Assembly (NCBI RefSeq): GCF_900112195.1
Contig: NZ_FOKR01000006.1
Location: forward strand, 124,001-188,000
Source: Butyrivibrio sp. YAB3001
Lineage (GTDB): Bacteria; Bacillota; Clostridia; Lachnospirales; Lachnospiraceae
Direction of reading: 5' to 3'
Length of the DNA: 64,000 nt
The notes under the pieces are model-generated. The model saw nothing but the letters and a program-made list of their open reading frames with translations, did no database searches and had not been told where the DNA came from. Position 1 is the first letter of the stretch. Every line of letters begins with the position of its first letter. The translations under genes were made by a program, and so were the position numbers. Below, piece by piece: positions 8,281 through 59,864 of the stretch.

Positions 8281-8284
8281 ATAT

Positions 8285-12655: not shown

Positions 12656-12693
12656 GAAAAAGCTATGGATGACATTTTAAGCCACCCATAGCT
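12656..12693 (-). terminator. Terminator of htrA
   Basis: AGCTATGG (12661-12668) pairs with CCATAGCT (12686-12693). On the minus strand the stem is followed by TTTTT, 17 bases after the htrA stop. Confidence 0.75.
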
Positions 12694-12709
12694 ATAATCT
12701 CAAAAAAGC

Positions 12710-14329: not shown

Positions 14330-14501
14330 GTTAAATACCTTCTTCCTTTCTGAATATGGCTTAAGTATAAAGCGATTCTGTGACAGAATTGTGTTTTAAT
14401 TCTTATAAAAAAATAATATATTAATTTATAATAGTTTATAAAAATTTTATAATTTCATAAGGCTATTTTTAGTTTGGTTTTAAATACACGTTTAAACTGC
14501 T

Positions 14502-14771
14502 TCACCAGTCTTCTTCGATTATTTGAATCTCCATGTAATCAAACGAAATCTGATCAATAAATGCATCTTTGGTGAACCTGCATTTAGAGTGCCTCTGGAA
14601 ATCTTTTACAATATTATCAAGCCATATCGGCTTTGACAGATCAAACTCATAACAGGCTTTTTCAATTGCATTCATAACCTTATGCGTTCTTGTATCATTT
14701 GTATCATCACAAACAACCATGTCTTTAATAAGATGGTTATTGTCGATCAGTTTTACCCACAACCTGAACAT
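14502..14771 (-). CDS. Small conserved-looking cytoplasmic protein, unknown
   Basis: An 89-residue soluble, mildly acidic protein with aromatic residues (MFRLWVKLIDNNH..., ending EIQIIEEDW). No recognised motif. The ATG at 14771 is preceded by TATAGGAGTAATAG, a good ribosome site, and the codon use looks like the neighbours', so I believe it is real. It lies downstream of galE in the same direction but behind a terminator hairpin. Confidence 0.65.
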   Translation of the reverse strand: MFRLWVKLIDNNHLIKDMVVCDDTNDTRTHKVMNAIEKACYEFDLSKPIWLDNIVKDFQRHSKCRFTKDAFIDQISFDYMEIQIIEEDW

Positions 14772-14784
14772 CTATTACTCCTAT

Positions 14785-14826
14785 AAAAGCCCACTTTCTG
14801 AGAAAAGAAAAGTGGGCTTTTTTTAA
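14785..14826. terminator. Terminator between galE and the 89-residue gene
   Basis: AAAAGCCCACTTT (14785-14797) pairs with AAAGTGGGCTTTT (14809-14821). There is a T7 run on the plus strand and TTTT on the minus strand. The minus-strand stem ends 12 bases before the start of the 89-residue gene, so it could also attenuate that gene. Confidence 0.75.
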
Positions 14827-14956
14827 TGAATTCTTTTTTAACAATCTAATACAACAACAATGCAACTAACAAATTGATAGCAATGATCCATTCTATTTCA
14901 AGATGCTGTACTAGATCGAATCGCACTCATGACATTTGCGTGCATTCCATAAAATA

Positions 14957-15973
14957 TCAATCCTCGTAACCGTTAGGGTTCTGGCTCTGCCATCTCCAGG
15001 AATCTGCGCACATCTCTTTGATTCCATTCTGTGCCTTCCAGCCAAGCTCTTTTTCTGCCTTGTCAGCATTTGAGTAGCAGGTAGCAATATCGCCAGGTCT
15101 TCTCTCTCTGATCACATAAGGAATCTTAACCCCGGTTGCTTCTTCAAAGTTCTTAACAATATCAAGAACGCTGTATCCAACACCTGTTCCAAGGTTGTAG
15201 ATATTAAGTCCGCTACCTTTCTCAAGCTTCTTGAGAGCCTTAACATGTCCCACAGCAAGGTCAACTACGTGAATATAATCTCTCACGCCTGTGCCGTCAT
15301 GGGTATCATAGTCATTACCAAAGACATTAAGCTCAGGAAGCTTACCAACAGCAACCTGTGTAATATAAGGCATAAGATTGTTAGGAATGCCGTTAGGATT
15401 CTCACCAATAGTTCCGCTCTTGTGTGCTCCGATCGGATTAAAGTATCTCAGAAGAACTACATTCCATTCAGGATCAGCTTTCTGAATATCTGTAAGAACC
15501 TGCTCTAGCATTGACTTAGTCCATCCATAAGGGTTTGTGCATGTTCCCTTAGGGCATTCCTCAGTGATTGGAATAAATGCAGGATTTCCATAAACTGTCG
15601 CTGATGATGAGAAAATAATGTTCTTGCAATTATGTTTTCTCATTACATCAACAAGAGTTAATGTTCCTGCGATATTGTTTTCATAATATTCCCATGGCTT
15701 CTGAACAGATTCTCCTACAGCCTTAAGTCCTGCGAAATGTATTACGCTGTCAATTTGCTCAGTTGAAAAAATCTTCTCTAGTCCTTCTCTGTCTCTTATA
15801 TCAGTCTCATAGAATGGAACCTTTTTGCCTGTGAGCGCTTCTACTCTGCCAATTACTTTCTTACTGGCATTTGCAAGATTATCCATAACAACTACGTCAT
15901 AACCCGCATTCTGCAGCTCAACTACTGTATGTGATCCAATATATCCTGCTCCACCTGTTACAAGAATAGCCAT
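14957..15973 (-). CDS. galE: UDP-glucose 4-epimerase
   Basis: Interconverts UDP-glucose and UDP-galactose (possibly the N-acetyl forms) in the cytoplasm. The NAD-binding GGAGYIGSH lies at the N-terminus. The catalytic Ser is in SSSATVYG and the Tyr-x-x-x-Lys pair in NPYGWTK. At 338 residues it has normal GalE length. The frame is open further upstream to 16003, but the ATG at 15973 has GAGG at the right distance and starts directly at the Rossmann strand. Its neighbour is a UDP-sugar pyrophosphorylase, which suggests nucleotide-sugar supply for envelope polymers or the Leloir pathway. Confidence 0.95.
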
Positions 15974-16123
15974 AATCAACCTCTTTTCTGTTAACGTTAT
16001 CATTAACTAGCATACAATTTGTTCTGTTAGAAATACATTTTAAACGCAAATTCATCATTTAACAACACTAAATTGTTATGACAAGCTGTCAATATGTTAA
16101 ATAAGAATGTTTATACCAAGAAC

Positions 16124-16257
16124 AAAGAGTTGCATTGCAACTCTTTGCGCGCTGATGCGCGCAAGCGTTAGCTTGCATATACATTTGCGCATCAGTCGCA
16201 TCCATAGCGGAGCGTTTTTTTTCATAGGAATGTGAAGCAATTTACTATGAAATAAAA
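16124..16257. repeat. Dispersed hairpin-cluster repeat, copy 2
   Basis: Three consecutive hairpins (11-bp stem with 1-base loop 16124-16146; GCGCGC stem 16147-16162; GCAAGC stem 16161-16176) precede the unit shared with 8084-8280 (16186-16257). The shared unit ends in an inverted pair TTTCATAG (16220-16227) and CTATGAAA (16245-16252). This copy lacks the 116-bp insert of copy 1. It lies between galE and the pyrophosphorylase terminator. Confidence 0.75.
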
Positions 16258-16260
16258 AAC

Positions 16261-16300
16261 ACGGCATAGCCCATTCAACACAAGCTATGCCGTTATTTTT
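16261..16300 (-). terminator. Terminator of the UDP-sugar pyrophosphorylase gene
   Basis: ACGGCATAGC (16261-16270) pairs with GCTATGCCGT (16284-16293). The minus strand continues GTGTTTTTTATTT. It abuts repeat copy 2. Confidence 0.8.
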
Positions 16301-16315
16301 ATTCAATAAGAAATA

Positions 16316-17545
16316 TCAAAGCTCAATGCCATTTAACTTGCAAAGCTCTCTTGCTGATTCAACAGAATCAATTCCCTCTTTATTCTTGATAGGCGCAAAC
16401 TCATGCTCTCTTACAACTTCATAAGGAAGACATGTGTCAAGCTCATGGATCATATCAAGAACAAGCTGTTCAAACTTGCAGCCATTTGGAGCTTCCGGCT
16501 TGATAAGGTTTGCGTTCTCATCGATGTAAGGAATCTTCTTCTCAACTACGTGGAGAGGAAGTGTGTTCTTTGCAATCTCATTAAGAGCCTTTTCATTGAA
16601 AAGATAATTAAGGATAACACCAAAATTATATGCAGGATCGCCATTTGCATCCTTGGCATCCATCATTTCCTGTGAAAGCTCATAATACTCAACAATAGAA
16701 GGTCTGCCATCCTCAAGACACATAACTCCAACCTTCTCATCAGGAGCATTTTTTCTGACAACCTTAGCTCCGCAGGAAACCTTAGCATTGACTGTTGCGC
16801 CAACAAAGCAAGGATCTGCAATTCTCTGAAGGACATTGTCAACAGCAAAAATATCAATCCACTCAATGCCTTCTTTTAACAGAACATCACGAAGTCCTGC
16901 CTTGAGCATTGAAGAATACCATCCTGCATTACCGTTTGGAGAAGTTGAGATTCTGCCCTTGCCCTCCATATAAACCTTTCCGTTATAGTCAGAAGCAGGA
17001 GCCATATCCTGTTTGAAGAATGTGATCTTATCCTCTGGATAACCAAAGAAATTATGCTCCTTAAGGAAGCTTATTGTAGCATCATTATTCTTTTCACTTG
17101 TCATGATAAAGAGATGGATGTACGCGCCATCTGCCTGCTTTACAGTATCAATAAGATTCTCGATGATTCTCTGGAAGATATAAACCTTCTTTGTAAGACC
17201 AATATCATACATTCCCTTAGGGTTATCAGAACCAAGTCTTGTTCCCATTCCACCGGCTAAAAGAACTGCTGCAACCTTTCCAGCCTTGATTGTCTCAACA
17301 CCAATCTTAGTAAATTCCTCTTTTCTCTTCTCAATCTCATCAACCTGCATAGCTGCCAGAGGTTCGAATTTGCCACGTCCTTCACTCTTGCCAAGATTCT
17401 TACAATTCTCAAGAACTGCAAAATCCGTCTCATCAATCTGAGTAAGAAGTTCCTGCTTTTCAGCATCCGTAAGTTCATCATAATATTTCAGAACGTGTTC
17501 CTGTCCGAACTGTTCAAGTTTTTTCTTTGCTTCTTCTAAAGTCAT
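16316..17545 (-). CDS. UDPGP-type UTP-sugar-1-phosphate uridylyltransferase
   Basis: Makes UDP-sugars (UDP-glucose, UDP-GlcNAc or UDP-GalNAc) from UTP and sugar-1-phosphate. The 409 residues belong to the eukaryote-like UDPGP family and not to the shorter bacterial GalU type. The nucleotide loop LAGGMGTRLGSDNPKGMYDI is clear and PNGNAGWYSS corresponds to the sugar-binding loop. The start is the ATG at 17545 with GAGG 7 bases upstream; the GTG at 17551 is too close to that site. It precedes galE in the same direction but has its own terminator. GlcNAc versus Glc specificity is not decidable by eye. Confidence 0.88.
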   Translation of the reverse strand: MTLEEAKKKLEQFGQEHVLKYYDELTDAEKQELLTQIDETDFAVLENCKNLGKSEGRGKFEPLAAMQVDEIEKRKEEFTKIGVETIKAGKVAAVLLAGGMGTRLGSDNPKGMYDIGLTKKVYIFQRIIENLIDTVKQADGAYIHLFIMTSEKNNDATISFLKEHNFFGYPEDKITFFKQDMAPASDYNGKVYMEGKGRISTSPNGNAGWYSSMLKAGLRDVLLKEGIEWIDIFAVDNVLQRIADPCFVGATVNAKVSCGAKVVRKNAPDEKVGVMCLEDGRPSIVEYYELSQEMMDAKDANGDPAYNFGVILNYLFNEKALNEIAKNTLPLHVVEKKIPYIDENANLIKPEAPNGCKFEQLVLDMIHELDTCLPYEVVREHEFAPIKNKEGIDSVESARELCKLNGIEL

Positions 17546-17626
17546 TTCCACACCTCATTTACAAATGTTTAATTATTCCTTCAATATCATACTACAAAAC
17601 TGCGTATGAAAATATAAATCTTTTCA

Positions 17627-17670
17627 AAATAAGTCTGTATAAAGTTTTCCAGCTTCATACAGACTTTATC
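17627..17670 (-). terminator. Terminator of the lysozyme gene
   Basis: AAGTCTGTAT (17631-17640) pairs with ATACAGACTT (17657-17666), followed on the minus strand by ATTTTG. It lies about 20 bases past the stop. Confidence 0.65.
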
Positions 17671-17687
17671 ATTTTTGTATTTCTTAT

Positions 17688-19409
17688 TTACTGCACTGCT
17701 GCATTTGCCTGAGCAGGCGCTGCTTCTGTAACTGCCGGTGCTGCCTCAGCAGGAGTCTGTGCCGCCGGTAAAGGTGTACCAGGCGCCCATCCTGCAGGTG
17801 TTGTCAGAAGTCCATTTTTATCAAATGTGCATTCCACATTATCAAGAACAGCTGTTGTCTTAGCAAGCATTTTACCATTGTTGGCATCAAAGTATCTCCA
17901 GCCATCAGGAAGCTGAACCCAACCTACAACCATATGTCCATCTGTAGGATCAAGATAATAAACGCCTTCCTTGAGACTTGCTAAACCTGATACCATATTT
18001 CCATCCGCGCCAAAATAAAATGCCTTACCATCTATCGCATTCCAACCTGTTACCATTCTGCCATCAGCTGCAAAATAGTACTTTGATCCGGCTTCGCCTG
18101 TCCAACCTGTGAACATAACGCCATCAGCGCCAAATAAATAAACAGAATTTTCAATTGTCTGAAGTCCTACATATGCCTTGTGGTCTGCGCCAAAGAAGTA
18201 CTTCTGTCCCTTTTCGTCTGCATACCATCCTGAAACCGCTGTTCCGTCAGGCGCAAACATATATTTTCCAATCTCAAATGCAAGCATTCCTGTCTGCATT
18301 ACACCATTTTCATTGAAGAAATAGAGGTTATCGCCAACCTGAGTAAGTCCTATATGCATCAGATACTGATCATCAAAATAATGAACTCCGTCATTAAGAG
18401 GGATAAGCCCCTTCTGGCAGACACCATCCTCATTTGCATAACAAACGGCGCCACCAACATCTATAAGTCCGGTCCTTCTTACACCATTTCCATCAAAATA
18501 GTATCTTGCTCCATCGATGTCTGCAAATCCAACCTTAGCAAGTCCGCCCTGCGCAGGGTCAAGATAGTAGATACCAGTTTCATCCTGGAACCATCCGGCA
18601 TTAATCACACCGTTTGCATCTGCATGATATCTTCCATTAGATAAGTTGAGCCATCCATACATCTTTTTATAATTATGATAGTAATAAATATTGCCGCCAT
18701 AACTATTAAAGCCCTCTGGAATAAGTCTGCTGAAATAATCTGTGTAAAGATGATTGACGTCAACTCTTGAAGGTACTCCGGCAACTGAACCATGGCTGGT
18801 TGACTGCCACATCGCGTAATCTCCTGCATATTCACAGGAGGAACTGTACTGCGCCACCCACTTAGCCGCAGATACAACAGGCATTCTACCTGTAAACCAG
18901 TTCTTGCTGGCATAAACCATTGGCTCATATCCGTTAGCTGAGATTATGCTGCAGAATGTATCTGCAATCGCCTGAAGCTGCGCCGCATTTAGTCCTTTCT
19001 GGCTTGAATCCTCAATATCTATTGCAATAGGAAAAGAAACTGTATATGGTCCAATCCATGCCAAAACCTGATTTGCCTCTGCCGCTGCCTGTTCAGGAGT
19101 AGTCGCATAGGAATAAATGTAAACTCCTGCTCTCACACCTGCTGCATTTGCTCCAACAATATTATTTACAAACTGCTCGTCGATACCCTTTTTAGTAGTA
19201 CCAACTCTTATCATTGCAAACTGCACACCGGAATTTTTAACCTGCTGCCAATTGATAGCTCCCTGATACTTAGAAACGTCAATACCCATAGCAATTTCGG
19301 GTCCTCTCGCTTCTACATTAACACTCGCAATCGGCGATAAAGATAGGAACGCTATTGCCGCAGCAAGCGCACCTAAAGAACATAATGCTCCCTTGAACTT
19401 TTTAAACAT
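17688..19409 (-). CDS. Secreted GH25 lysozyme with C-terminal cell-wall-binding repeats
   Basis: Muramidase acting on peptidoglycan outside the membrane. The signal peptide covers about residues 1-34 (MFKKFKGALC..., cleavage near EARG). The GH25 domain spans about 40-230 with GIDVSKYQG and catalytic Asp/Glu in IAIDIED. It is followed by about 14 aromatic/Gly repeats of the choline-binding type (YYLDP, YYFDGNG, KYYFAADGRMVTGW) and a short Ala/Pro tail. The ATG at 19409 has GAGGGAGAGG upstream; the earlier in-frame TTG at 19436 lacks a site. The 573 residues suggest a wall-anchored autolysin or remodelling enzyme. Own promoter and terminator. Confidence 0.93.
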   Translation of the reverse strand: MFKKFKGALCSLGALAAAIAFLSLSPIASVNVEARGPEIAMGIDVSKYQGAINWQQVKNSGVQFAMIRVGTTKKGIDEQFVNNIVGANAAGVRAGVYIYSYATTPEQAAAEANQVLAWIGPYTVSFPIAIDIEDSSQKGLNAAQLQAIADTFCSIISANGYEPMVYASKNWFTGRMPVVSAAKWVAQYSSSCEYAGDYAMWQSTSHGSVAGVPSRVDVNHLYTDYFSRLIPEGFNSYGGNIYYYHNYKKMYGWLNLSNGRYHADANGVINAGWFQDETGIYYLDPAQGGLAKVGFADIDGARYYFDGNGVRRTGLIDVGGAVCYANEDGVCQKGLIPLNDGVHYFDDQYLMHIGLTQVGDNLYFFNENGVMQTGMLAFEIGKYMFAPDGTAVSGWYADEKGQKYFFGADHKAYVGLQTIENSVYLFGADGVMFTGWTGEAGSKYYFAADGRMVTGWNAIDGKAFYFGADGNMVSGLASLKEGVYYLDPTDGHMVVGWVQLPDGWRYFDANNGKMLAKTTAVLDNVECTFDKNGLLTTPAGWAPGTPLPAAQTPAEAAPAVTEAAPAQANAAVQ

Positions 19410-19553
19410 ACCCTCTCCCTCAAAAAATAATTTCAACTAAATCAGTAACCAAAGCGCAATTCCATCATTATTTTTTACATGAAAAATACATTGCATCTCT
19501 ATTGTTACAGTTTCCAAGAAAAAATGGTTATCAGAACGATAATCCAATGAATG

Positions 19554-19570
19554 GTTACATTTTTTGTAAC
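19554..19570. promoter_or_regulatory. Operator-like palindrome at the lysozyme promoter
   Basis: GTTACA-N5-TGTAAC, a perfect inverted repeat, lies just downstream of the -10 box and would overlap the transcription start. A further GTTACAG occurs at about 19504. The binding protein is unknown; the adjacent TetR protein is one candidate. Confidence 0.45.
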
Positions 19571-19576
19571 AATTGA

Positions 19577-19605
19577 ATTATACAAAAAAATAGTGGTTCT
19601 GACAA
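19577..19605 (-). promoter_or_regulatory. Promoter of the lysozyme gene
   Basis: On the minus strand TTGTCA (19605-19600), 17 bases, TATAAT (19582-19577): close to consensus. The leader would be about 160 bases long. Confidence 0.75.
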
Positions 19606-19697
19606 GCAAAACCGCGCAATAGACGGCGTAAATTTACTGTAGGATTTGAAAGGGTAGATTGCCCCTGTGATCAGTTCAGATGTTCAAACCTTGCTCA

Positions 19698-48659: not shown

Positions 48660-50774
48660 TTATTCCCAGCCTAATGCCTTGCGCTTAGCTTTCATATCTT
48701 CCACGATGAGATTTCCAAGCGCTACCGGGTCTGTATTAACATTCATTGTTGAGCCAAGGAGTTCTTTAGTTCCATATTTCAAAAACTCAATAACATTTTT
48801 TGAGCCATAAATCTGAGCCTCTACGCAGTGATAGGAACTGATTCCGTTAAGTCTAAAGCCAAGGGCTGCATCTATGCCTTTTTCGTTGCCCCACTCGGGA
48901 GAAGCAAAGGCAAATGGAAGCTCATATAGATTTTTTCCAAGGACGCCTGCTACACCGGCAAATATTCCTGTTGAGCGGGTGTTATCAATACACTCACCAA
49001 CATGCCATACCGGTGGAAGATCCGGCTCTAAGAATTCGCGCAGAGATTCGCCTGCTTTTTCTTTTCCCGAAATTGCGCAGTAACCCAGTTTCATAAGAGG
49101 GAAGGATGCGCAGCCATTTGTGATGATAAGAACATTGTTCTTAAGAAGTACATCTGCAACATCTATAATGCACTTTTCATAGAGAACCTTTGGATTGTTG
49201 CAGCCAACCATGTTTACAATGCCAAGTATCTGGCCTGATTTTATGGCTTCTGCCAAAGGTTTCATGCTTCCAAATCTCTTGTGGATATACTCAACAGAAA
49301 ATCCAACTTCTGCCTCAACCTCATATGGAGGAATGTAAACAGGGATTCCTTTCCTGTTTTCAAAGCTTTCAATCGCACGGCGGACTATCTTTTCTGCAAG
49401 TTCCTGAGTTTGGCTTAAGTTGCTGTGATGATGGTCATATTCATAGCGCTCCGCGCCGGGAAGGCGAGCTGATTCACTGGTGGTAACAACCACAGTCTTA
49501 AAGCAATGCGCAACATCCATAATTGAAGGAAAAACATCCTGCACATCAGCAACCCACAGATCCAGTGCGCCTGTTCCAAGAACAAGTTCTGCTGATACCG
49601 CATTTGAAAGAGGAATAACACCACTATCACGATACATGGCAGAAAGTCCCGAACAGCAAATACCATAAAATCTGATTCCCTTTGCACCTTTCTCTTTTGC
49701 CAGGGAAATAAGGTCTTCTCTCTTACCTGCTGCCACAATCTGACTGACAAGAAGTGGAAGATGTCCATGAACAGCTATATTAACATAGCCTTTTTCAAGT
49801 GCACCGATATTTACCTTTGACGTAACTCTGTCACCAACTCCAAATAAAGCATCAGTAGCAAGGCTTGCTCCTACAACTCCTGAGAAAGTAAACGCTAGTC
49901 CGCAGCGCAAGAACTGCTGCATTATGCTTTTCCAGTCGCCATCTGTTGCGCAGCCACTCTTGTGATATGCTTCAAAAACCTCATGATAAGCACTGATTGG
50001 AAGGATATCCAACTCTTCCCAGGTCTTTTGTCTTTCCGGGAGTGCACAGGCCTTGATTGTCTTATACTCACCAGGAACAGTTCTTGATAAATCCTCAAGA
50101 AGTACATCAGCAAGATCTTTAGCGACATTCTTAAGCTGTCGATTTTTCTCTTTTATCCCAAAAGCCTGCGCAGTGCTTCTTATTTTTTGCTCACCTAAAA
50201 TTGGTATATCAAGCTCTCCCTCTGCAACTTTTTTAAGCGCAAGCATGACTTCTCTTGCATGCATTCCATGCTGTGAAGCTCCCGCAGCTGCTGAGCGAAG
50301 AAGATTTCTTGCAACAATCAAGTCTGCGTCTGCGCCGCATACACCCTTCGGTGCTTTCGCAGTAATACGGCAGGGTCCCATATTGCAGATCTTACAACAG
50401 GTTCCGCTAAGTCCAAAATTACACTGGGGCTTTTGAGCATCAAAACGGTCAAAAGTTGTGTCAATTCCAAGCTGTTCCATGCGAAGAAGCATCTCTCTGA
50501 CTGCCGGATCAGGCGTTTGTTCTATCACATCCTGCTTTGAAGGAAATGTCTTTCTATATTCTGAAACAGCATTCATATAATCTTTGGTAAAATCTTCCGG
50601 ACTGCTATCACCGCCGTGATCACTGGCTTTGAGCGTTACTGTCGGAATTCCATGCTCATCAAACCCAATAAGATTTCTGTGGGAATGGATATGCTCCAGC
50701 CCTTTGTGACCATGTGAATGACCATGTTCATGGTCATGCTCATGATCATCAATGTGATTGTGTGAGTGACTCAT
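48660..50774 (-). CDS. CooS-family (CO-dehydrogenase-like) protein with His-rich N-terminus and altered active site
   Basis: 704 residues. The CODH scaffold is clear: Cys118 and Cys126 (D-cluster), Cys127, Cys130, Cys135 and Cys146 (B-cluster). C-cluster positions include the HGH at 336-338, Cys373/374 (GICCSG), Cys525 (VGCNNP), Cys555 (NGCAS) and Cys595 (GECIDN). The remaining C-cluster cysteine (Cys333 in Carboxydothermus CODH-II, usually DVQCIMPS) is Asp413 (DVQDVFPS). Lys632 and the His pair 169/172 are kept. CooS-V of C. hydrogenoformans, also lacking one canonical Cys, holds an Fe/S/O hybrid cluster and does not oxidise CO; this protein may be similar. Residues 1-32 include 13 His. No cooC, cooF or acs genes are adjacent. 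Confidence 0.9.
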   Translation of the reverse strand: MSHSHNHIDDHEHDHEHGHSHGHKGLEHIHSHRNLIGFDEHGIPTVTLKASDHGGDSSPEDFTKDYMNAVSEYRKTFPSKQDVIEQTPDPAVREMLLRMEQLGIDTTFDRFDAQKPQCNFGLSGTCCKICNMGPCRITAKAPKGVCGADADLIVARNLLRSAAAGASQHGMHAREVMLALKKVAEGELDIPILGEQKIRSTAQAFGIKEKNRQLKNVAKDLADVLLEDLSRTVPGEYKTIKACALPERQKTWEELDILPISAYHEVFEAYHKSGCATDGDWKSIMQQFLRCGLAFTFSGVVGASLATDALFGVGDRVTSKVNIGALEKGYVNIAVHGHLPLLVSQIVAAGKREDLISLAKEKGAKGIRFYGICCSGLSAMYRDSGVIPLSNAVSAELVLGTGALDLWVADVQDVFPSIMDVAHCFKTVVVTTSESARLPGAERYEYDHHHSNLSQTQELAEKIVRRAIESFENRKGIPVYIPPYEVEAEVGFSVEYIHKRFGSMKPLAEAIKSGQILGIVNMVGCNNPKVLYEKCIIDVADVLLKNNVLIITNGCASFPLMKLGYCAISGKEKAGESLREFLEPDLPPVWHVGECIDNTRSTGIFAGVAGVLGKNLYELPFAFASPEWGNEKGIDAALGFRLNGISSYHCVEAQIYGSKNVIEFLKYGTKELLGSTMNVNTDPVALGNLIVEDMKAKRKALGWE

Positions 50775-50878: not shown

Positions 50879-51652
50879 TCAAATTGTGTATTCAATAGTT
50901 TCCTCTATCTTCATATTCAGAAGGTCAAATATCTTATCTCTAACAAGCAAAAAATCTCCGCTTGTCCTGTCCCTGAAATGATGAAGCGGAACTGTAATAA
51001 TTCCCTTTACTGTACCGGGATTAGGTGTCATCACAACAATCCTGTCTGCAAGATAAACTGCTTCTTCTATATCATGGGTAACAAATATGATCGTTTTCTT
51101 TTCATTCTTACAAATATCCAGAATGTCATCCTGAAGCTTCATTCTGGTAATTGCATCAAGCGCTCCAAATGGCTCATCCATGAAAATAATATCAGGTTCA
51201 ACCGCAAGCGCTCTTGCAATTGCAACTCTCTGCTTCATTCCTCCTGAGAGCTGCCTTGGAAAACTATTGGCAAAGTTATCAAGCTTCACCATTTTCAAAT
51301 ATTTCACTGCCTGTTCTCTTCGCGCAGCCTTATCTTTAACCTTTGCTTCAAGTCCAAGCTCAACATTTTTAATAACAGTGCGCCATGGCAATAGTCCGTA
51401 GTTCTGGAAAATGGTAACGTTCTTGGTACTTGGCGCTGTAACCTCTTTTCCATCAATCTTGATACTGCCATGATTTGCAAGATCAAACCCTGCAATAGCA
51501 TTTAAAAGAGTACTCTTCCCGCACCCTGATGGCCCCAAAAGGCAGATAAACTCACCCTTTTCAATATCAAGGTTTACATTTGCTAAGGATGTGAACTCCA
51601 CGCCATTTTCACTGAATGTTTTTCCGGCATTTTCTATGTGAATATATGACAT
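50879..51652 (-). CDS. SsuB/NrtD/TauB-type ABC importer ATPase
   Basis: 257 residues. Walker A GPSGCGKST, Q-loop FQNYGLLPW, signature LSGGMKQR, Walker B DIIFMDEPFGALD, H-loop VTHDIEEA. This subfamily drives import of nitrate, sulfonates, taurine and similar small anions. Its start overlaps the permease stop (TGATG), so it is coupled to it. Downstream, after 104 bases, is the cooS homologue, which may be co-transcribed. Confidence 0.92.
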   Translation of the reverse strand: MSYIHIENAGKTFSENGVEFTSLANVNLDIEKGEFICLLGPSGCGKSTLLNAIAGFDLANHGSIKIDGKEVTAPSTKNVTIFQNYGLLPWRTVIKNVELGLEAKVKDKAARREQAVKYLKMVKLDNFANSFPRQLSGGMKQRVAIARALAVEPDIIFMDEPFGALDAITRMKLQDDILDICKNEKKTIIFVTHDIEEAVYLADRIVVMTPNPGTVKGIITVPLHHFRDRTSGDFLLVRDKIFDLLNMKIEETIEYTI

Positions 51653-52413
51653 CAGTTTTCACCTCCCCAAGCTCTTAGAATTCTCTTTTCCAAAAGTCCG
51701 ATCAAAAAATCAAGAAGCAGTCCAATAAAGCCAATCACAAAGATAGTAGCCAAAAGGATGTCTGCCCTAATATTGTTTCTCGCATCAATGATCTGGTATC
51801 CAAGTCCTGACTGAGCGCCCACCATCTCGCCAGCCACAAGGAATATCCACGCACTTCCAAGTGCCAGGTGTATTGCATTTGCAATCTGCGGAAATGCAGC
51901 AGGCAGTATCACTTTCCACATTAAAGCCGGCTGCTTTATTCCAAAATTATCAGACACTCTGAAATAAATATCATCGATTTTGTTCACTGCGGAAACGGTT
52001 GATAACAGAACCGGAAAAAAAGCTGAAATAAAAATGATAACTATCGCAGGAAGATTTCCAATTCCAAAAAGCAAAACCACAAAGGGCATCCATGCTGTAG
52101 GAGATATCGGTCTTAAAAGCTGCAAAGTTGGATTTACATAGTTAAAAACTTTAGGAAGACTCCCAAGAATCAATCCAAGAAATACCGCTATGATCACCGA
52201 TAGCCCATATCCGATCACAAATCTGTACATACTGGCACCAATGGATGCGATCAGTGTTCCATCCTGTATCATTTCAACAAGCGCCTGCAAAGCCATAAAT
52301 GGCGAAGGAAACAGCGCAGGGCTGTAGGTGCTTACAGTAAAGGCAAGCTGCCATATAGCTATCAGGATTAAGATTGATACGATCACATATCTAATTGATG
52401 CTAGTTTCTTCAT
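51652..52413 (-). CDS. SsuC/TauC-type ABC importer permease
   Basis: 253 residues, about six spans, with LLRPISPTAWMPFVVLLFGI and the conserved C-terminal loop AGEMVGAQSGLGYQIIDARN typical of the sulfonate/nitrate class. The ATG at 52413 follows AAAGGGACAATAAT. It lies 30 bases downstream of the binding-protein gene and overlaps the ATPase gene. Confidence 0.92.
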   Translation of the reverse strand: MKKLASIRYVIVSILILIAIWQLAFTVSTYSPALFPSPFMALQALVEMIQDGTLIASIGASMYRFVIGYGLSVIIAVFLGLILGSLPKVFNYVNPTLQLLRPISPTAWMPFVVLLFGIGNLPAIVIIFISAFFPVLLSTVSAVNKIDDIYFRVSDNFGIKQPALMWKVILPAAFPQIANAIHLALGSAWIFLVAGEMVGAQSGLGYQIIDARNNIRADILLATIFVIGFIGLLLDFLIGLLEKRILRAWGGEN

Positions 52414-52443: not shown

Positions 52444-53373
52444 TTAAAAATCGTTTATTACAAAATCAGCATATGCCGGTGGATTATCGGATAATCCATA
52501 AGCCTTAACCTTCTTAGCCAACTCATTGTACTGCTCTTCAGTAATTGCAAGATCATCATAAGAAATCCATTTAAGAGAAATATCCAATACTTCTTCATCT
52601 TTCTGATTCAGATATTTCTTGGCAACAGCTTTGGTTGTCTCAGGATCAAGATTATTTCCTGCTGTTTTATACCCTTCTACAAAAGCCTTTGCGGTATCAG
52701 GATGATTCTCAATAAACTTATCTGTCAGTACAAGAGCGCAGCAAACTGAGTTTTCCCAAAGTTCTTCCGAAGTATAAAGAACTTTTCCTGCACCGATTGA
52801 AACTCCCATAGCGCCAAAAGGTTCAGCCACACAGTAACCATCAATCGTTCCTGCTGCAAGAGCAGATGGCATTTCTGTAGGAGCAAGCTCAACTACATTG
52901 ATATCAGAGGTAGTAAGACCATTCCTTGAAAGGGCATCATTGACAAGAATGTTATGTGAGGACTGGCGATGAGGAATCGCAATTGTTCTTCCCTTTAAAT
53001 CCGCCCCATCTTTAACATCATTTGAAACAACAATAACATTTCCATCCTTATGTCCAAGTGCAACTGCCTTGATTCCAACACCCTCAGCCTTCGACTTCAT
53101 CGCAAGCTCAATAAGAACTGATGCTCCATCTACCTGTCCTGAATTAAGTGCATCTAAAAGCTCCGGCCATGAACCATACTTAACAAGTTCAATTCCTATC
53201 TGGTCATTTCCCTCAAATTCATCTGCTTCCTCTAATGCTGCAAGTGAATGGGTTATTGGAAGATACGCAATCTTCACTGTTTCTTTTGGCTCTTTTGCAT
53301 TTGCACTTCCGCAGCCTGCAAGAGCAAGTGCTGTAACAATTAGTAACGATAGCAATAATAAATGTTTTTTCAT
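52444..53373 (-). CDS. SsuA/NrtA/TauA-type substrate-binding lipoprotein
   Basis: 309 residues. A lipoprotein signal with LALAGC, then a two-lobed binding domain: VKIAYLPITHSLAALEEADE at the start, GRTIAIPHRQSSHNILVNDA and GTIDGYCVAEPFGA at the hinge. The ligand is likely a small sulfur or nitrogen oxyanion or sulfonate; the family does not settle which. The ATG at 53373 has GGAGG 9 bases upstream; the in-frame ATG at 53391 precedes that site and is rejected. First gene of the transporter operon leading to the cooS homologue. Confidence 0.9.
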   Translation of the reverse strand: MKKHLLLLSLLIVTALALAGCGSANAKEPKETVKIAYLPITHSLAALEEADEFEGNDQIGIELVKYGSWPELLDALNSGQVDGASVLIELAMKSKAEGVGIKAVALGHKDGNVIVVSNDVKDGADLKGRTIAIPHRQSSHNILVNDALSRNGLTTSDINVVELAPTEMPSALAAGTIDGYCVAEPFGAMGVSIGAGKVLYTSEELWENSVCCALVLTDKFIENHPDTAKAFVEGYKTAGNNLDPETTKAVAKKYLNQKDEEVLDISLKWISYDDLAITEEQYNELAKKVKAYGLSDNPPAYADFVINDF

Positions 53374-53564
53374 AACTTCTATCCTCCGCATAGGTAAATA
53401 GGTTTTATATATATGATGTTACTAATGTTAGCATCCACCTACTGTTTTGAAAATATAATTGATTTTATAGTCTGCAATAAGGAAATTCTATGGAAAACGA
53501 AAATGAAGATAACTATTTGTTTTCATTATCGCGTTAATACTTTAACTCATTAAATCAGCATACT

Positions 53565-53639: not shown

Positions 53640-54080
53640 TTAGATCACATACATATCCCAACCACTTGACATTCTTTCCCTGCAATGCTGCAAAAAATCT
53701 TCAAGCGTCATATTCGTTGCAAAATCAGACATGAATGAATTTATCTTTCCCCACAGGCAAAAATCCACAGCATCTCTAAGTGAACCGCTACTATCAGAGG
53801 ATTCCATTTCTTCTAAAACAGTTGTATCCAGAGCATTTATCACATCCGCAACTGTTATTTCACTCTCTGACTTATTAAGCGTATACCCACCTGTCTTTCC
53901 CTTTTGAGCTTTGATGAGCCCTGCCTGACGAAGAAGCGGCAATATCAGTTCCAAATACTTTTTAGATATCCCCTGTCTTTGCGCAATTTCAAGCGTAGAG
54001 ACGCTCTCACCTTTTTCTGAATTCATAGCTATATCCGCAAGTGCAATAACACCATACTCTACTCTTGTCGAAACCCTCAT
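53640..54080 (-). CDS. Rrf2-family transcription regulator
   Basis: 146 residues. The N-terminal winged helix (RVSTRVEYGVIALADIAM, EIAQRQGISKKYLELIL, KGKTGGYTL) is typical of Rrf2. The C-terminal half contains only two cysteines (in DFCLW and QHCRE), not the three-cysteine cluster motif of IscR/NsrR, so Fe-S sensing is doubtful; CymR-type cysteine regulators also lack it. It sits between a sulfonate/nitrate-type importer and a Met/polar-amino-acid importer, so control of sulfur uptake is a reasonable inference. The ATG at 54080 with AAAGGGGA is chosen over the TTG at 54095. Confidence 0.88.
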   Translation of the reverse strand: MRVSTRVEYGVIALADIAMNSEKGESVSTLEIAQRQGISKKYLELILPLLRQAGLIKAQKGKTGGYTLNKSESEITVADVINALDTTVLEEMESSDSSGSLRDAVDFCLWGKINSFMSDFATNMTLEDFLQHCRERMSSGWDMYVI

Positions 54081-54168
54081 TTTATCCCCTTTCAAGCATC
54101 ATTAGCAGCCTTCGTTCTCTGCCTTCCCCATTGTCCACAGGCTAAAAACCCTGGAACAATCTTGGCAT

Positions 54169-54909
54169 TTAATCTCCATAAGTAAACGTCTGCAAGAATT
54201 TCTTTAGTCTCTCCGTCTTGGGATTTTCAAAGAACTCCTTTGGCGCCCCCTCTTCAACAATCTTCCCGCCATCTATAAATATCATTCTGTCAGAGACCGC
54301 GCGGGCAAACTGCATTTCATGGGTTACTATGAGCATTGTTCTTCCTTCCTTTGCAAGAGAAAGAACCACATCCAACACCTCTTTTACCATCTCAGGGTCA
54401 AGAGCCGCTGTAATCTCATCAAGAAGCAAAATCTCAGGATGCATTATAAGAGCCCTGACTATGGCAACTCTCTGCTTCTGACCTCCCGACAGCTGCCTCG
54501 GATAATTATCCTTCTTAGACAAAAGACCTACTCTTTCAAGAAGCTCTAATGCTTCTTTTTGTACTTCCTTTTTGTCACGCTTTTTTACCTTGGTCGGCGC
54601 AAGCATAAGATTTTGCAGAACAGTAAGATGCGGAAAAAGATCATAACTTTGAAAAACCATCCCTATCTTTTCACGTATTTTACTAAGATCCTTATTTCCT
54701 GAATTAACAACCTCGCCATCAAGCAAAATTTCTCCATCCTGTATATCCTCAAGAGCATTTAGGCAGCGTAAAAAAGTACTTTTTCCACAGCCTGACGGGC
54801 CAACTATAACAACCACTTCTCCTTTTTTTACGGAAAGATTCAAGTCCTGAAAAACTGTTATGTCCTCATATCTTTTGCTTATATTCTTTACAGTTAAGAT
54901 TTCTTCCAT
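54169..54909 (-). CDS. GlnQ-type polar amino acid ABC ATPase
   Basis: 246 residues. Walker A GPSGCGKST, Q-loop VFQSYDLFPH, signature LSGGQKQR, Walker B EILLLDEITAALDPE, H-loop VTHEM. The DEITAALD form (usually DEPTSALD) has Ile-Thr after the catalytic Asp-Glu, which remain intact. It begins 1 base after the permease stop and is the last gene of the 54.2-59.9 kb operon. It would energise the two HisM-type permeases. Confidence 0.93.
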   Translation of the reverse strand: MEEILTVKNISKRYEDITVFQDLNLSVKKGEVVVIVGPSGCGKSTFLRCLNALEDIQDGEILLDGEVVNSGNKDLSKIREKIGMVFQSYDLFPHLTVLQNLMLAPTKVKKRDKKEVQKEALELLERVGLLSKKDNYPRQLSGGQKQRVAIVRALIMHPEILLLDEITAALDPEMVKEVLDVVLSLAKEGRTMLIVTHEMQFARAVSDRMIFIDGGKIVEEGAPKEFFENPKTERLKKFLQTFTYGD

Positions 54910-54910
54910 G

Positions 54911-55579
54911 TCAGTTCTCCCACTTCTTTTCCAAATATCTTGAAAGCATGCTTATCGGCCAGCACGCCAGAAAATACATCAAAAATATCACAAGAAATAT
55001 TCCAAAAGCAGCATTGGGTGAAGATTTTCTGTTAGCTTCTATTATCTGCTGCCCAACCTTTAACACTTCAACTATACCTATCATCATCACAAGACTGGTT
55101 GTCTTTATCATTCTGGTAATGAGATTTATTGATAGCGGGATCATTCTCCTTATAATCTGCGGAACTATCACATATCGGTATGTCTGAAATTTATCAAGCC
55201 CCAGCGACATGCTGCTCTCATATTGAATAACCGGAATGCTTCCCAGGGCTCCTCTCACAAGATCTGCCATTTCAGCAGTTCCCCAAAATGAAAAGACTAT
55301 GATTGATGCAGCCTCTGCAGATAAATTGATTAAAAGCGCCTTTGTGCTTCCGAAATAAACAATAAATAAAAGCACCATCTGTGGCATTATCCTTACTATC
55401 TCAAGATAAACTCTTGAAACTACTGTTATCACAGGATTCTTAAGTGCCATCAAAATTCCAAGCACAACGCCAAGTACAATGCTTATCACCACTGAAACAA
55501 GGCTTATTTTAAGAGCTACCGAAAGTCCCAATAGAAGTCTTATAAAATTGTTACCTTTAAGTAAAACCTCAAGTCCCAT
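54911..55579 (-). CDS. Polar amino acid ABC permease, HisM type (second)
   Basis: 222 residues, about five spans, with the EAA loop at ESSMSLGLDKFQTYRYVIVP and the RIMPQMVLLFIVYFG segment typical of amino-acid permeases. It follows the other HisM-type gene after 95 bases. The two probably form a heterodimeric channel. Downstream is the GlnQ-type ATPase. Confidence 0.92.
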   Translation of the reverse strand: MGLEVLLKGNNFIRLLLGLSVALKISLVSVVISIVLGVVLGILMALKNPVITVVSRVYLEIVRIMPQMVLLFIVYFGSTKALLINLSAEAASIIVFSFWGTAEMADLVRGALGSIPVIQYESSMSLGLDKFQTYRYVIVPQIIRRMIPLSINLITRMIKTTSLVMMIGIVEVLKVGQQIIEANRKSSPNAAFGIFLVIFLMYFLACWPISMLSRYLEKKWEN

Positions 55580-55674
55580 TATTCAAAACTCCAATATTAT
55601 ATGAATTATCGAATGATATTTCAGAAATGCGCACTACACTGCGGTTTCATGCAACAATGAATGCGAATTATGGT

Positions 55675-56328
55675 TTAGTGTCCAAACACTACCAATTTCT
55701 TCTCAATTATGCTTCCAAGAACTGACACAGGAAGAAGCATGATTATATAAAACACCACCAGCAAAAACAGCGCTTCTGTCGTATTGTAGTAAAGCCCTAT
55801 AAGGTCTTTTGCTGTAAACATAAGGTCCATGAGGCTTATTGCTGAAAAAACGCTTGTCTCTTTTAAAAGAAAAATCACATTTGCAACAACTCCGGGAACA
55901 CTTAGTGATAATGCCTGCGGAAAAATAACGTAAAAAAACAACTGTCTTTTACTAAGTCCAAGCGCCAGCGCGCTTTCTGTTTGTGAAGCAGCCACTCCAT
56001 CAAGTCCGCTTCTAAACACTTCCGACATGTAACTTCCGCCCAAAAGTCCAAGTCCCACTGCGCCGCAGGTATCTGCTTTAACAGAGATTCCAATCTTGGG
56101 TAACGCAAAGTAAATAAAAAATAACTGTACAAGAAGCGGTGTATTTCTAAAAAGTTCAACATATACCTTGGAAACAGCAGACAACACCGGCACTTTAAAA
56201 TGCAGTACAAATGCGGTAAAAATGCCAATGACAATCGAAAGGGCAATTCCTATCCAGCCAATCCTGATTGTGAGCCAAAATGCCTCTATGTACTTTGGTA
56301 TATACGAACTTATAACTTCAAAATCCAT
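55675..56328 (-). CDS. Polar amino acid ABC permease, HisM type (first)
   Basis: 217 residues, about five spans, FRNTPLLVQLFFIYFALPKI and EAA loop ESALALGLSKRQLFFYVIFP, as in cystine, glutamine or histidine transporters. It lies 12 bases after metI. Its expected binding protein is not a separate gene here; the N-terminal half of the fusion lipoprotein at the head of the operon is the obvious partner. Confidence 0.92.
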   Translation of the reverse strand: MDFEVISSYIPKYIEAFWLTIRIGWIGIALSIVIGIFTAFVLHFKVPVLSAVSKVYVELFRNTPLLVQLFFIYFALPKIGISVKADTCGAVGLGLLGGSYMSEVFRSGLDGVAASQTESALALGLSKRQLFFYVIFPQALSLSVPGVVANVIFLLKETSVFSAISLMDLMFTAKDLIGLYYNTTEALFLLVVFYIIMLLPVSVLGSIIEKKLVVFGH

Positions 56329-56340
56329 AATAAAAACCTA

Positions 56341-57000
56341 TCAGCGCTTTCTATGATCTGCCTTAAGTGAAATCTTTGTTCCCACATTCTGAATGATCTG
56401 GAAAATAATGATAAGAAGGATTACCGTAACAAACATGATATCCGTCTGCCATCTGTAGTAACCATACCTTACTGCAATGTCGCCAAGTCCGCCGCCACCG
56501 ACAGTTCCTGACATTGCCGAATATCCCAAAAGAAGTCCTGTAGTAATCGTAAATCCTGTCAAAAGTGACGTTCTTGCTTCTACAAGAAGCACCTTTGTAA
56601 TAATCTGGAAGTTACTAGCTCCCATTGACTTTGCCGCCTCAATAACTCCTGCATCCACCTCGTTTAGTGATGACTCAACCACACGGGCTATATAAGGCGC
56701 AGCACATATTACAAGCGGAACAATGGTTGCTGTTGAACCATAGCTTTGTCCAACTATAAGTCTCGTAAAAGGAATAAGAAGTATCAAAAGAATAAGAAAT
56801 GGAATACTTCTTATAATGTTGCAGACAAAATCAAAAACATGATAAATAACCTTGTTTGGTCTAAGGCCCTTTTCACTTGATACATAAAGCAGTATTCCAA
56901 GGGGAAGCCCAACTGCATATCCGATGATTACCGACCCGAAAGTCATATATAAAGTATCTTTAATGCCCTCAAGAAGCATCTTTATAACCTGTTCATTCAT
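56341..57000 (-). CDS. metI: Methionine ABC transporter permease
   Basis: 219 residues, five spans, with the MetI hallmarks RSIPFLILLILLIPFTRLIVG (first 20 residues shared) and AGVIEAAKSMGASNFQI-type EAA loop, and SAMSGTVGGGGLGDIAVRYG. The ATG at 57000 overlaps the metN stop by 8 bases and has GGAGG 9 bases upstream. It pairs with MetN to import methionine or related compounds. Confidence 0.94.
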   Translation of the reverse strand: MNEQVIKMLLEGIKDTLYMTFGSVIIGYAVGLPLGILLYVSSEKGLRPNKVIYHVFDFVCNIIRSIPFLILLILLIPFTRLIVGQSYGSTATIVPLVICAAPYIARVVESSLNEVDAGVIEAAKSMGASNFQIITKVLLVEARTSLLTGFTITTGLLLGYSAMSGTVGGGGLGDIAVRYGYYRWQTDIMFVTVILLIIIFQIIQNVGTKISLKADHRKR

Positions 57001-58006
57001 TCTCGCCGACCTCCGCAACAAACAATCCTGAATTTTGTAAATGTTCTATGATACTGTTTTGTAATTCCTCACCCTCAGGAAGTCCAAGTATCATTTCACC
57101 GATTGCTTTGCCGTTTACATTTCTTGTATCAGCTCTCAGGATGTTTACCGGAGCCTGAAGCTTTAGAATCGTATTTGCAATCACAGGCTCATAAGCTGAA
57201 TTTTCCTGGAAAACAATCCTGATTCTTTTCACATCATTTAAAATCTGAACAGGTGTATAGCGGATCTCTTTTCCTGAAATAAGCTCTTTGGCAGCATCTG
57301 ATTCAGGATTTTCGAATATCTTCTCCACATCACCGACTTCAACCAGTCTTCCGCTGTCAATTATCGCAACCTTATTGCACACTTCCGTTACAACCGACAT
57401 CTGATGGGTGATTATCACAATTGTTATTCCAAGATCAGCGTTAATCTTTTTTAATAGACCAAGAATAGAAGCTGTTGTCTGAGGATCAAGAGCGCTGGTT
57501 GCCTCATCACACAAAAGAATCTGAGGATTTGTAGAAAGAGCTCTCGCAATAGCAACTCTCTGCTTTTGACCTCCGGATAACTGCGAAGGGTAAGCCTTTT
57601 CTTTTTCCTCAAGTCCGACAAGTTTTAAAAGATCTTTTGCTTTCTGACGGGCTTCTTTTTTCTTAACACCTGAGATTTCAAGTGGAAAACATACATTGTC
57701 AATTACATTTTTCTGCTCAAGAAGATTGAAATTCTGGAATATCATTCCTATCTGGCTTCGTTTCTTTCGAAGTTCTTTTTCAGATAGTTCTTCAAGATTA
57801 ACGCCATCTATAAGAACATGTCCCTCTGTTGGCTTTTCCAGATAATTTATAGACCGCACCAAAGTGCTCTTTCCTGCCCCTGACATTCCGATTATTCCGA
57901 AAATATCACCCTTTTCAACAGAAAGATTTATACCGCTAAGCGCAGTTACTGTATGCCCTTCAACTTCAAATTTTTTTGTCAGATTCTTAATCTCTATAAC
58001 GCTCAT
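56993..58006 (-). CDS. metN: Methionine ABC transporter ATPase with NIL domain
   Basis: 337 residues. Walker A GMSGAGKST, signature LSGGQKQR, Walker B ILLCDEATSALDP, H-loop ITHQM, and a C-terminal NIL regulatory domain (about 260-335) that in known MetN proteins binds methionine and inhibits transport. I place the start at the ATG at 58006 (GGAG upstream; sequence begins MSVIEIKNLTKKF) and reject the longer frame to 58183, whose extra residues come from a structured intergenic RNA. It lies after the fusion lipoprotein gene and overlaps metI. Confidence 0.95.
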   Translation of the reverse strand: MSVIEIKNLTKKFEVEGHTVTALSGINLSVEKGDIFGIIGMSGAGKSTLVRSINYLEKPTEGHVLIDGVNLEELSEKELRKKRSQIGMIFQNFNLLEQKNVIDNVCFPLEISGVKKKEARQKAKDLLKLVGLEEKEKAYPSQLSGGQKQRVAIARALSTNPQILLCDEATSALDPQTTASILGLLKKINADLGITIVIITHQMSVVTEVCNKVAIIDSGRLVEVGDVEKIFENPESDAAKELISGKEIRYTPVQILNDVKRIRIVFQENSAYEPVIANTILKLQAPVNILRADTRNVNGKAIGEMILGLPEGEELQNSIIEHLQNSGLFVAEVGENE

Positions 58007-58020
58007 ATCTGCTCCATTAA

Positions 58021-58118
58021 TTACGGGAGAGCCCTTTTGGTATTGCCCGGATATATATGATAATGCCTGCAATGCCATGGAAACACGAATGAAATGTTTC
58101 CATAAGACTCTCCCGTAA
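58021..58118 (-). ncRNA. Three-way-junction RNA element in the metN leader
   Basis: P1: TTACGGGAGAG (58021-58031) with 58108-58118, perfect 11 bp. P3: ATGGAAACA (58077-58085) with 58095-58103, perfect 9 bp. P2: GGTATTGC (58039-58046) with GCAATGCC (58069-58076), one wobble pair. P2 and P3 abut without a gap, as in coaxially stacked riboswitch junctions. In the transcript P1 closes 4 bases before GGAG of metN, so it could affect initiation. It does not match the SAM (S-box) or T-box consensus that I know. It may also simply protect the upstream binding-protein mRNA. Confidence 0.6.
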
Positions 58119-58151
58119 ATCAATTCTTTATAATCATTTGTTCTTAAATCT

Positions 58152-59864
58152 TCAGCTCTCGAAGAAAATAACTGCTCCGTCATAAGTATCTTCGATGAAT
58201 TTCTTGATATCAGCAGATCTGAGAACTGTTACAAGAGCTTTGATCTTGTCTGAATTCTCGTTTCCATCAAGTACACCGATGATATTTACATAAGTCTTAG
58301 CTGCAACTGAATCGCTTGACTCATATGCAATTGAATCTTTTCCGACAGAGTATCCTGCCTCAAGTGCATAGTTTCCATTAAGTACAACATATGAAACTTC
58401 ATTTACTACTCTTGCTACCTGTGCAGCTTCAAGTTCAACAAATTCGATGTTATAAGGGTTTTCTACGATATCATTAACTGTTACCTTAAGGTCTGCGCCA
58501 TCCTTTAATTTAAGAAGGCCATTATCCTGAAGTAAAAGAAGTGCTCTTGCTTCGTTTGTTGTATCATTAGGAATTGCAATCTTATCGCCATCTGCTACTT
58601 CATCAAGGCTCTTTTTCTTTCCAGGGTAAATTCCAAATGGCTCATAGTGGATGTCACCTGCATCAACAATATGTGTACCCTGCTCTTCGTTGAAGCTGTT
58701 AAGATATGGAACATGCTCCATGTAGTTTGCATCAAACTCACCTGACTCTACTACAAGGTTTGGCTGAACATAATCTTCAAATTCAACAATATCAAGGTTG
58801 TATCCATAATCTTTAAGGATGTCAGCTGCTTTTGCAAGGATCTCTGCGTGTGGAACAGGTGAAGCTGCAATCTTGATTGTCTCGCCGTTTCCAGGAACTA
58901 TATCAAGCGCTGCTGCGTCTGAAGCTGTGCCTGCAGCTGCTGTTTCTGTAGAACCTGCAACCTTGCCACCTTCTACTACAAGTGTTTCTTCGTAATCTTT
59001 ACCATAAGTATCAATAAGTGTTGCTTCATAATCTGCGTGGAAGAAATTCTCTCCGCCAAGGCTTACAATTTCATTGTTGAGCCAGTCAAGAAGTGTGCTG
59101 TTGCCCTTTGAAACTGCAGGAGCGATTGTATCCTGGCTTCCAAGTGAAGGAATACCTACTACATATCCATGATTTTCAATTGCATATGCGATAACTTCTG
59201 TATTATCATTTGCCCATGCAACTCCTGTTCCATTTTCAAAAGAAGTCTTTGCTGTTGCATATGTATCAAATTTCTGAAGCTTGATGTCAGGATAATTCTT
59301 TTCAAGATATGTCTCAGCAGTTGTTCCGGAAATAACGATAACCTGATCATCAGCTGAAATCTGGCTAAGGTCTTCGATCACATTATCCTCATGTGAAACA
59401 ACTCCAAGTGCTACATTCATGTATGGAAGTGCGAAATCAACCTTCTGTGCTCTCTCTTCAGTTACTGTGAAGTTTGCAAGAACTATGTCGACCTTACCTG
59501 TCTCAAGATACTCAACTCTGCTTGCTGCCTCAGTTGAAACATAGTTTATTTCAACACCAAGGTCCTTACCGATTCTCTCAGCAAAGTAAACATCATATCC
59601 CTGATATGCGCCATTCTCATCAACATATCCAAATGGGTTCTTATCAGAAAATACTCCGATGTTAACCTTTCCGCTCTCCTTGATTTCATCAAGAGTTCTA
59701 TAAATCTTATTCTCATCTCCAGTCTGTGCTGAAGCTTCTGATGCAGTTGAATCTGCCTTTGCAGCAGGCTGCTCACTTGATGAACCGCATCCTGCAAGTG
59801 CAGCAACACCTAATGCTGCAGCTGAAACACTTGCCACTACTTTCTTAAATAATTTCTTTTTCAT
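58152..59864 (-). CDS. Double-headed lipoprotein: polar-amino-acid-binding domain fused to MetQ domain
   Basis: 570 residues. A lipoprotein signal with Cys26 (AALAGC) and a Ser/Ala-rich linker precede a family-3 solute-binding domain at about 60-293 (GKVNIGVFSDKNPFGYVDEN, DIVLANFTVTEERAQKVDF, ISGTTAE). A Thr/Ala linker follows (about 294-325), then a complete NlpA/MetQ domain at about 327-570 (IKIAASPVPHAEILAKAADI, YMEHVPYLNSFNE, IPNDTTNEARALLLL). There is no second signal peptide, so both heads hang from one anchor. The operon downstream supplies MetNI plus a HisM-type transporter, one for each head. The first domain most resembles cystine/glutamate binders. ATG with GAGGAGAGGAGAAAG. Confidence 0.92.
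   Translation of the reverse strand: MKKKLFKKVVASVSAAALGVAALAGCGSSSEQPAAKADSTASEASAQTGDENKIYRTLDEIKESGKVNIGVFSDKNPFGYVDENGAYQGYDVYFAERIGKDLGVEINYVSTEAASRVEYLETGKVDIVLANFTVTEERAQKVDFALPYMNVALGVVSHEDNVIEDLSQISADDQVIVISGTTAETYLEKNYPDIKLQKFDTYATAKTSFENGTGVAWANDNTEVIAYAIENHGYVVGIPSLGSQDTIAPAVSKGNSTLLDWLNNEIVSLGGENFFHADYEATLIDTYGKDYEETLVVEGGKVAGSTETAAAGTASDAAALDIVPGNGETIKIAASPVPHAEILAKAADILKDYGYNLDIVEFEDYVQPNLVVESGEFDANYMEHVPYLNSFNEEQGTHIVDAGDIHYEPFGIYPGKKKSLDEVADGDKIAIPNDTTNEARALLLLQDNGLLKLKDGADLKVTVNDIVENPYNIEFVELEAAQVARVVNEVSYVVLNGNYALEAGYSVGKDSIAYESSDSVAAKTYVNIIGVLDGNENSDKIKALVTVLRSADIKKFIEDTYDGAVIFFES

Follow-up and report, generated by a model that had tools for sequence, protein, structure and literature searches.

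The window analysed here, a stretch of 64,000 nucleotides from Butyrivibrio sp. YAB3001, carries on its reverse strand a gene for a homologue of the carbon monoxide dehydrogenase (CODH) protein CooS. Upstream of it and on the same strand lie an ABC transporter cassette, an Rrf2-family regulator gene and a further group of importer genes, as follows:

48660..50774, (-): cooS homologue of the Asp type of clade B, 704 aa (TIGR01702, 487 bits, and ligand table)
49536..49538, (-): codon GAT of Asp413, at the second C-cluster cysteine position (Cys333 of CODH-II in the numbering that we assume)
48993..48995, (-): Glu594, the residue preceding Cys595, the equivalent of the Ni-ligand cysteine (row alignment)
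50679..50768, (-): His-rich N-terminal tail, residues 3-32 (translation)
50879..51652, (-): ATPase of a NitT/TauT-type ABC transporter, best NCBIfam match the ntrCD subfamily, below cut-off; part of the conserved cassette
51652..52413, (-): ABC transporter permease, best matches SaoP, TauC and NtrB, below cut-offs
52444..53391, (-): SsuA-like ABC substrate-binding protein (TIGR01728 below cut-off; NMT1_2)
53640..54095, (-): Rrf2-family regulator (TIGR00738 over cut-off; IscR and CymR models below cut-off)
54169..59864, (-): adjacent importer genes, namely a GlnQ/TcyN-like ATPase, three permeases, a MetN-like ATPase with NIL domain and a fused binding protein

The match of the reading frame to TIGR01702, the CooS model, is narrow (487 bits against a curated cut-off of 478). 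In the ligand alignment the D-cluster cysteines C118 and C126, the B-cluster cysteines C127, C130, C135 and C146, the C-cluster positions H338, C374, C525, C555 and C595 and the acid-base pair H169/K632 are all retained, with cluster assignments that follow a CODH-II numbering which we take to be correct. The full C-cluster set of one His and five Cys is incomplete at one position, where Asp413 (GAT) falls opposite the cysteine of the DVQC/DYQC-IMP motif, with no gap nearby, in three CODHs of the PDB for which alignments were printed. The spacings 413-525 and 413-555 are one residue shorter than those between the CODH-II cysteines, which we assume to be 333/446/476. An earlier note on this DNA had claimed an Asp in place of a C-cluster cysteine, all D- and B-cluster cysteines and most C-cluster ligands in place and a spacing within one residue of CODH-II, and on these points it was right. 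An AlphaFold2 model built from 24 close sequences had a mean pLDDT of 57, with values below 50 at 412-415 and 594-597, and was too poor for use.

To see how the altered site is distributed, we consider an alignment of 156 CooS rows, consisting of 98 Asp-type rows (window included; 94 distinct, as four loci were entered twice), 12 rows of a Cys type that keeps all cysteines, and 46 other CODHs. Of the 98 Asp-type rows, 97 have Asp at position 413 and L177 has Glu, and all 58 rows outside the Asp type have Cys there; over the distinct Asp-type proteins, window and hold-out included, the counts are Asp 113/114 and Glu 1/114. At position 594, Glu is found in 98/98 Asp-type rows and Ser, Gly or Ala in the 58 others. 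The hold-out consists of 20 Asp-type loci of another class, taken from about 50 strong matches listed and chosen for spread over genera and long contigs, and each of the 20 has both Asp413 and Glu594. The two residues are thus conserved together, as paired acidic changes near the cluster, and the altered active site is common to the close relatives of the window CooS and not a matter of chance. A sequencing error at residue 413 was considered and rejected, since two bases would have to change to give a Cys codon and Asp recurs in nearly all distinct relatives.

The 88-row tree contains 30 Asp-type and 12 Cys-type rows. Each of the two types forms one branch with SH-aLRT 100, and with a midpoint root they are sister groups with a support of 99, for which the tree program warned that both branches are long and may join falsely. 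The likeness of the transporter genes, with Cys-type ATPases 49-59% identical to the window ATPase, argues that the kinship is real. The best relatives bear the phylum labels Bacillota, Campylobacterota and Planctomycetota, and many of them are metagenome-assembled genomes (MAGs). Several sequences of 79-83% identity (L127, L132, L147 and others), whose MAG labels are planctomycete, Thermoguttaceae or Campylobacter, branch among Bacillota sequences, for which gene transfer in the rumen is the likely explanation unless MAG binning errors are responsible. Another Asp-type cooS, with its ABC genes, is carried by pRUMAL02, a plasmid of Ruminococcus albus 7 that is predicted to be conjugative (NC_014825.1, 60210-62348; L304); genes for a flavodoxin and of the methionine synthase type are found 6-9 kb downstream.

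The earlier note had further suggested that the protein may belong with CooS-V of Carboxydothermus, with which it shares the CODH scaffold and the replacement of one C-cluster cysteine by an acid. That placement is contradicted by the ligand that is changed, by the acid-base residue and by the tree. In CooS-V, Glu replaces Cys295, which binds the iron that lies outside the cubane (PMC9311411), and its structural group, D-1, carries Tyr where the acid-base His would stand, according to the available text of PMC6344411. The window CooS, in contrast, retains both the Cys295 equivalent (C374) and the acid-base H169 and is changed at the Cys333 equivalent. It differs in the same way from the hybrid cluster protein (HCP), whose Glu we take to correspond to the Cys295 position of CODH, where the window CooS keeps Cys. 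The PDB chain 7b7q, presumably CooS-V, is the weakest CooS-type PDB match to the window CooS (271 bits against 418 for the best). In the tree CooS-V was represented by two stand-ins in place of its own sequence, L268 (532 bits to 7b7q; matched best by 6t7j, with 539 bits) and L262; these group together, and a 99% branch separates them from the window protein. It is most improbable that the protein is an Fe/S/O hybrid-cluster enzyme like CooS-V, as the earlier note suggested, or like HCP, with hydroxylamine or another compound of nitrogen stress as its substrate: the carboxylates near the cluster, the HCP-family scaffold and the slight hydroxylamine reductase activity gained by C295 variants of CODH-II (PMC9311411) speak for it, but the ligand changed is a different one, the acid-base His is kept, and among those neighbours that could be identified, a part of all neighbours, no nitrogen-stress genes were recognised.

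By its description, the window CooS fits group B-1 of clade B as published by Inoue et al. in 2019. The available text of that study (PMC6344411) already gives for this group an Asp/Glu variant at the second C-cluster Cys, a His-rich N-terminal region, the His/Lys pair and NitT/TauT ABC transporter genes beside cooS, all of which the window shows. The Cys type may be their group B-4, again by description only. According to the part of PMC13056359 available, clade B still awaits biochemical characterisation and its function is not deducible from genomic environment.

Concerning gene context, only the Rrf2 regulator and MetN/MetQ-like importer genes stand beside the window cassette; no cysK is present at the locus, CysK genes lie elsewhere in the genome, and the window gave no Rfam match at the gathering threshold. 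The importer genes at 54169..59864 are probably for sulfur amino acid import, as judged from their sequence similarities. A single ORF among them (58152-59864) fuses SBP_bac_3 and NlpA/MetQ-type domains, in an importer that has both GlnQ-like and MetN-like ATPases.

The loci of relatives are richer in sulfur genes. The named Asp-type loci are the best 80 of 499 relatives; none of them falls below 79% identity, and they are hence not independent. In 73/80 an ABC binding-protein gene accompanies cooS, and CysK, MetY or CysE is found within about 10 kb in 27/80, the other 53 of these close kin having none of the three in that range. On the cassette strand and within 3.5 kb, CysK or MetY is present in 18 of the best 80, in 15 gene orders such as CysK-MetY-Rrf2-SBP-permease-ATPase-CooS (L114) and MetY-SBP-permease-ATPase-CooS-PatB-CysK-MetQ (L120); such variety is more suggestive of selection for proximity than of descent from a single operon. 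The sister group is uniform: in 12/12 Cys-type loci cysK is the nearest identified same-strand gene upstream of cooS, with hit-to-hit gaps of 23-188 bases. By the same method, CysK, MetY or CysE was found in 0/45 other CODH loci, three stretches without a CooS hit being left out, and in 0/20 random 20-kb stretches from 12 genomes carrying the cooS gene. Examples of cysK, cysE and MetY scored over the NCBIfam cut-offs. Two Asp-type samples bear on the breadth of the association: in a diverse set, 2/13 new loci, both of one genus, have CysK, MetY or CysE (2/17 when four loci repeating named ones are counted), and in the hold-out class the count is 0/20, so that the adjacency was not replicated there. 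The Fisher values, which ignore kinship, are 1e-12 (Cys type), 8e-7 (named Asp type) and 0.07 (diverse set, 2/17). The sulfur link is thus strong for the Cys type, repeated in Asp-type loci of the gut and unseen in the hold-out class. ABC genes occur in 8/20 hold-out loci, where many cooS genes are solitary, and a wider search for the Cys type by class returned three genomes in the class, all already covered.

An Rrf2 gene within about 10 kb is found in the window, in 10/80 of the named loci (best 80 of 499), in 1/12 Cys-type loci and in 1/20 of the hold-out (L300), where it adjoins cooS. Several further neighbours were observed. Two small membrane-type proteins of about 130 and 103 aa, with no Pfam match, lie beside cooS in 28/81 and 25/81 of the clustered loci, mostly in Ruminococcus (for example L094:8020-8412 and L106:12439-12750). 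An arylsulfotransferase gene follows the ABC genes in L186 and L187, and MnmA and MetE genes lie downstream in L192, which is the L147 locus.

RNA control elements were searched with Rfam in 24 clade B loci, namely the window and 23 others (12 Asp-type, 11 Cys-type). In L182 and L183, two Asp-type loci of one genus, a T-box leader precedes cysE-cysK-cooS, and its specifier region has TGC after GAA, which we read as a cysteine codon. In the Cys-type L201, a SAM riboswitch (5468-5576) stands directly before PLP-PLP-cysK-cooS-SBP-permease-ATPase, closely spaced genes on one strand. These three are the only loci of the 24 with either element; the window and the 20 others showed neither. In L199 a selenocysteine tRNA gene (2950-3042) was noted about 5 kb before the cysK-cooS operon.

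This context bears on the question whether the protein handles CO at all. Inoue et al. proposed that the ABC transporter imports Ni and the His-rich tail loads it; the available text of their paper (PMC6344411) holds no sulfur role and no mention of Glu594. A working Ni,Fe-CODH whose C-cluster has Asp as a ligand, supplied with Ni in this manner and oxidising traces of CO, would agree with the retention of the Ni ligand, the exo-iron ligands and the acid-base His/Lys, with the CooC-like gene that immediately precedes cooS in two loci of one family, L184 and L185, and with the binding protein, whose nearest solved structure, 3un6 (E 1e-61), is called metal-binding by Inoue et al. We nevertheless hold it unlikely, as the surroundings are those of cysK, cysE, the T-box and the SAM riboswitch, and CooC matches number 0/80 in the named loci (best 80 of 499), 0/12 in the Cys type and 0/20 in the hold-out, against 22/48 in the other-CODH sets. 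The cooS product is the only Prismane-family protein found in the window genome, so neither a second CODH nor an HCP was found there, and no acetyl-CoA synthase gene is present among the annotated window proteins outside positions 1-40000. The statement of the earlier note that the protein is probably no ordinary CODH of CO metabolism can be upheld by inference, as distinct from its suggested link to CooS-V. What the genes around some of the close relatives suggest is that a protein of the window type helps anaerobes to get sulfur for cysteine and methionine, and not to handle carbon monoxide.

NitT/TauT systems also carry sulfonates and taurine. The sulfur link could then be the ABC transporter's alone, with CooS as a metal store, a chaperone or a redox partner, and the frequency of the binding-protein gene beside cooS among the best 80 relatives would agree with it. 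We give this very little weight, since L182 and L183 have T-box-cysE-cysK-cooS without a transporter nearby, cysK adjoins cooS in every Cys-type locus, and the cluster ligands are nearly invariant. Taking cysK adjacency, cysteine T-box, SAM control and a small-anion transporter together, the simplest account is an enzyme that supplies sulfur to CysK and MetY; that the clade B CooS proteins, the Asp type included, are reductases of sulfur assimilation seems to us somewhat better supported than not.

Our best reading, a prediction from sequence and gene context, is a low-potential reductase that acts on a small sulfur anion taken up by the cell and frees its sulfur in a form that can be assimilated. 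The NitT/TauT-type transporter would import such an anion. Two Asp-type loci have a gene for a SLAC1/TehA-family anion channel adjoining cooS, with no ABC genes found nearby (L177:8092-9105 and L178:9220-10131), and here the channel probably replaces the ABC transporter. NitT/TauT systems and SLAC1-type channels both carry small anions, which makes sulfite, thiosulfate, thiocyanate and small sulfonates the candidate substrates. Electrons at ferredoxin potential, from a presumed donor, would flow, by analogy with CODH, by way of the D and B clusters and reach a C-cluster-like centre. There the carboxylate of Asp413 is predicted to serve as one cubane ligand, and that of Glu594 would lie adjacent; as the exo-iron ligands His338 and Cys374 and the Ni-ligand position Cys595 are kept, Ni may still be present. 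This centre would cleave the substrate and free sulfide or a thiol, to be fixed by CysK and MetY into cysteine and homocysteine/methionine.

Siroheme sulfite reductase is relevant to the product. Its domain PF01077 was not found in the window genome, and it is absent from 20/40 clade B genomes, that is from 20/30 of the Asp type and 0/10 of the Cys type; in genomes without the enzyme, CooS would need to yield either sulfide or a thiol. Sulfite reductase is rare in the window genus either way, being present in 1/11 genomes with the cooS gene and 7/50 without, and its lack as a specific correlate of the cooS gene is unsupported within the genus. A fuller proposal is that the clade B CODH-like proteins form a separate class of assimilatory sulfur reductases, with a Ni/Fe-S or Fe-S centre that is carboxylate-modified in the Asp type, making sulfide for CysK/MetY in anaerobes and possibly acting as siroheme-free sulfite, thiosulfate or thiocyanate reductases where siroheme sulfite reductase is absent. 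For this we would put the chances slightly short of even.

The protein group itself is already published, and the new lead is the functional link to sulfur. In titles and the beginnings of abstracts of the open-access literature, with most subscription papers outside this scope, no link of clade B or cooS to sulfur assimilation was recognised. For gut cooS genes the available text of PMC11338639 gives the contexts 'ABC transporter' and, separately, 'cysteine synthase', not joined to sulfur use; no sulfur link of cooS is reported in the available parts of PMC7835215 and PMC5640608, and the subject of PMC7000372, from what is available of it, is another protein. If the proposal is true, some 'CO utiliser' calls in the gut are wrong, a well-studied metalloenzyme scaffold gains new chemistry, and a third metallocluster route into organic sulfur stands beside the siroheme enzymes and the nitrogenase-like reductases, as a route shared across gut phyla and once carried on a predicted conjugative plasmid.

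Two known systems are comparable to the one proposed. In SsuABC/SsuD a transporter of the same superfamily stands beside a sulfur-releasing enzyme, as would be the case here if CooS releases sulfur; SsuD, however, is an O2-dependent flavin enzyme, whereas CooS is an anaerobic Fe-S protein. The other comparison is with methylthio-alkane reductase and nitrogenase-like sulfur salvage, in which, as proposed for CooS, a family of low-potential reductases with metalloclusters serves to acquire sulfur (PMC12552129, available part), although protein family and cofactor are unrelated to CooS. The window genome has a nitrogenase-like cluster of its own (L281, contig C35, ~8216-19654), where NifH is over the TIGR01287 cut-off and NifD/NifK-like and NifB-like genes are below cut-offs. 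It looks like a nitrogenase-like sulfur salvage system, and its partners, NitT/TauT-type ABC genes, CysK and a MetY-like PLP gene, are of the kind that clade B cooS has.
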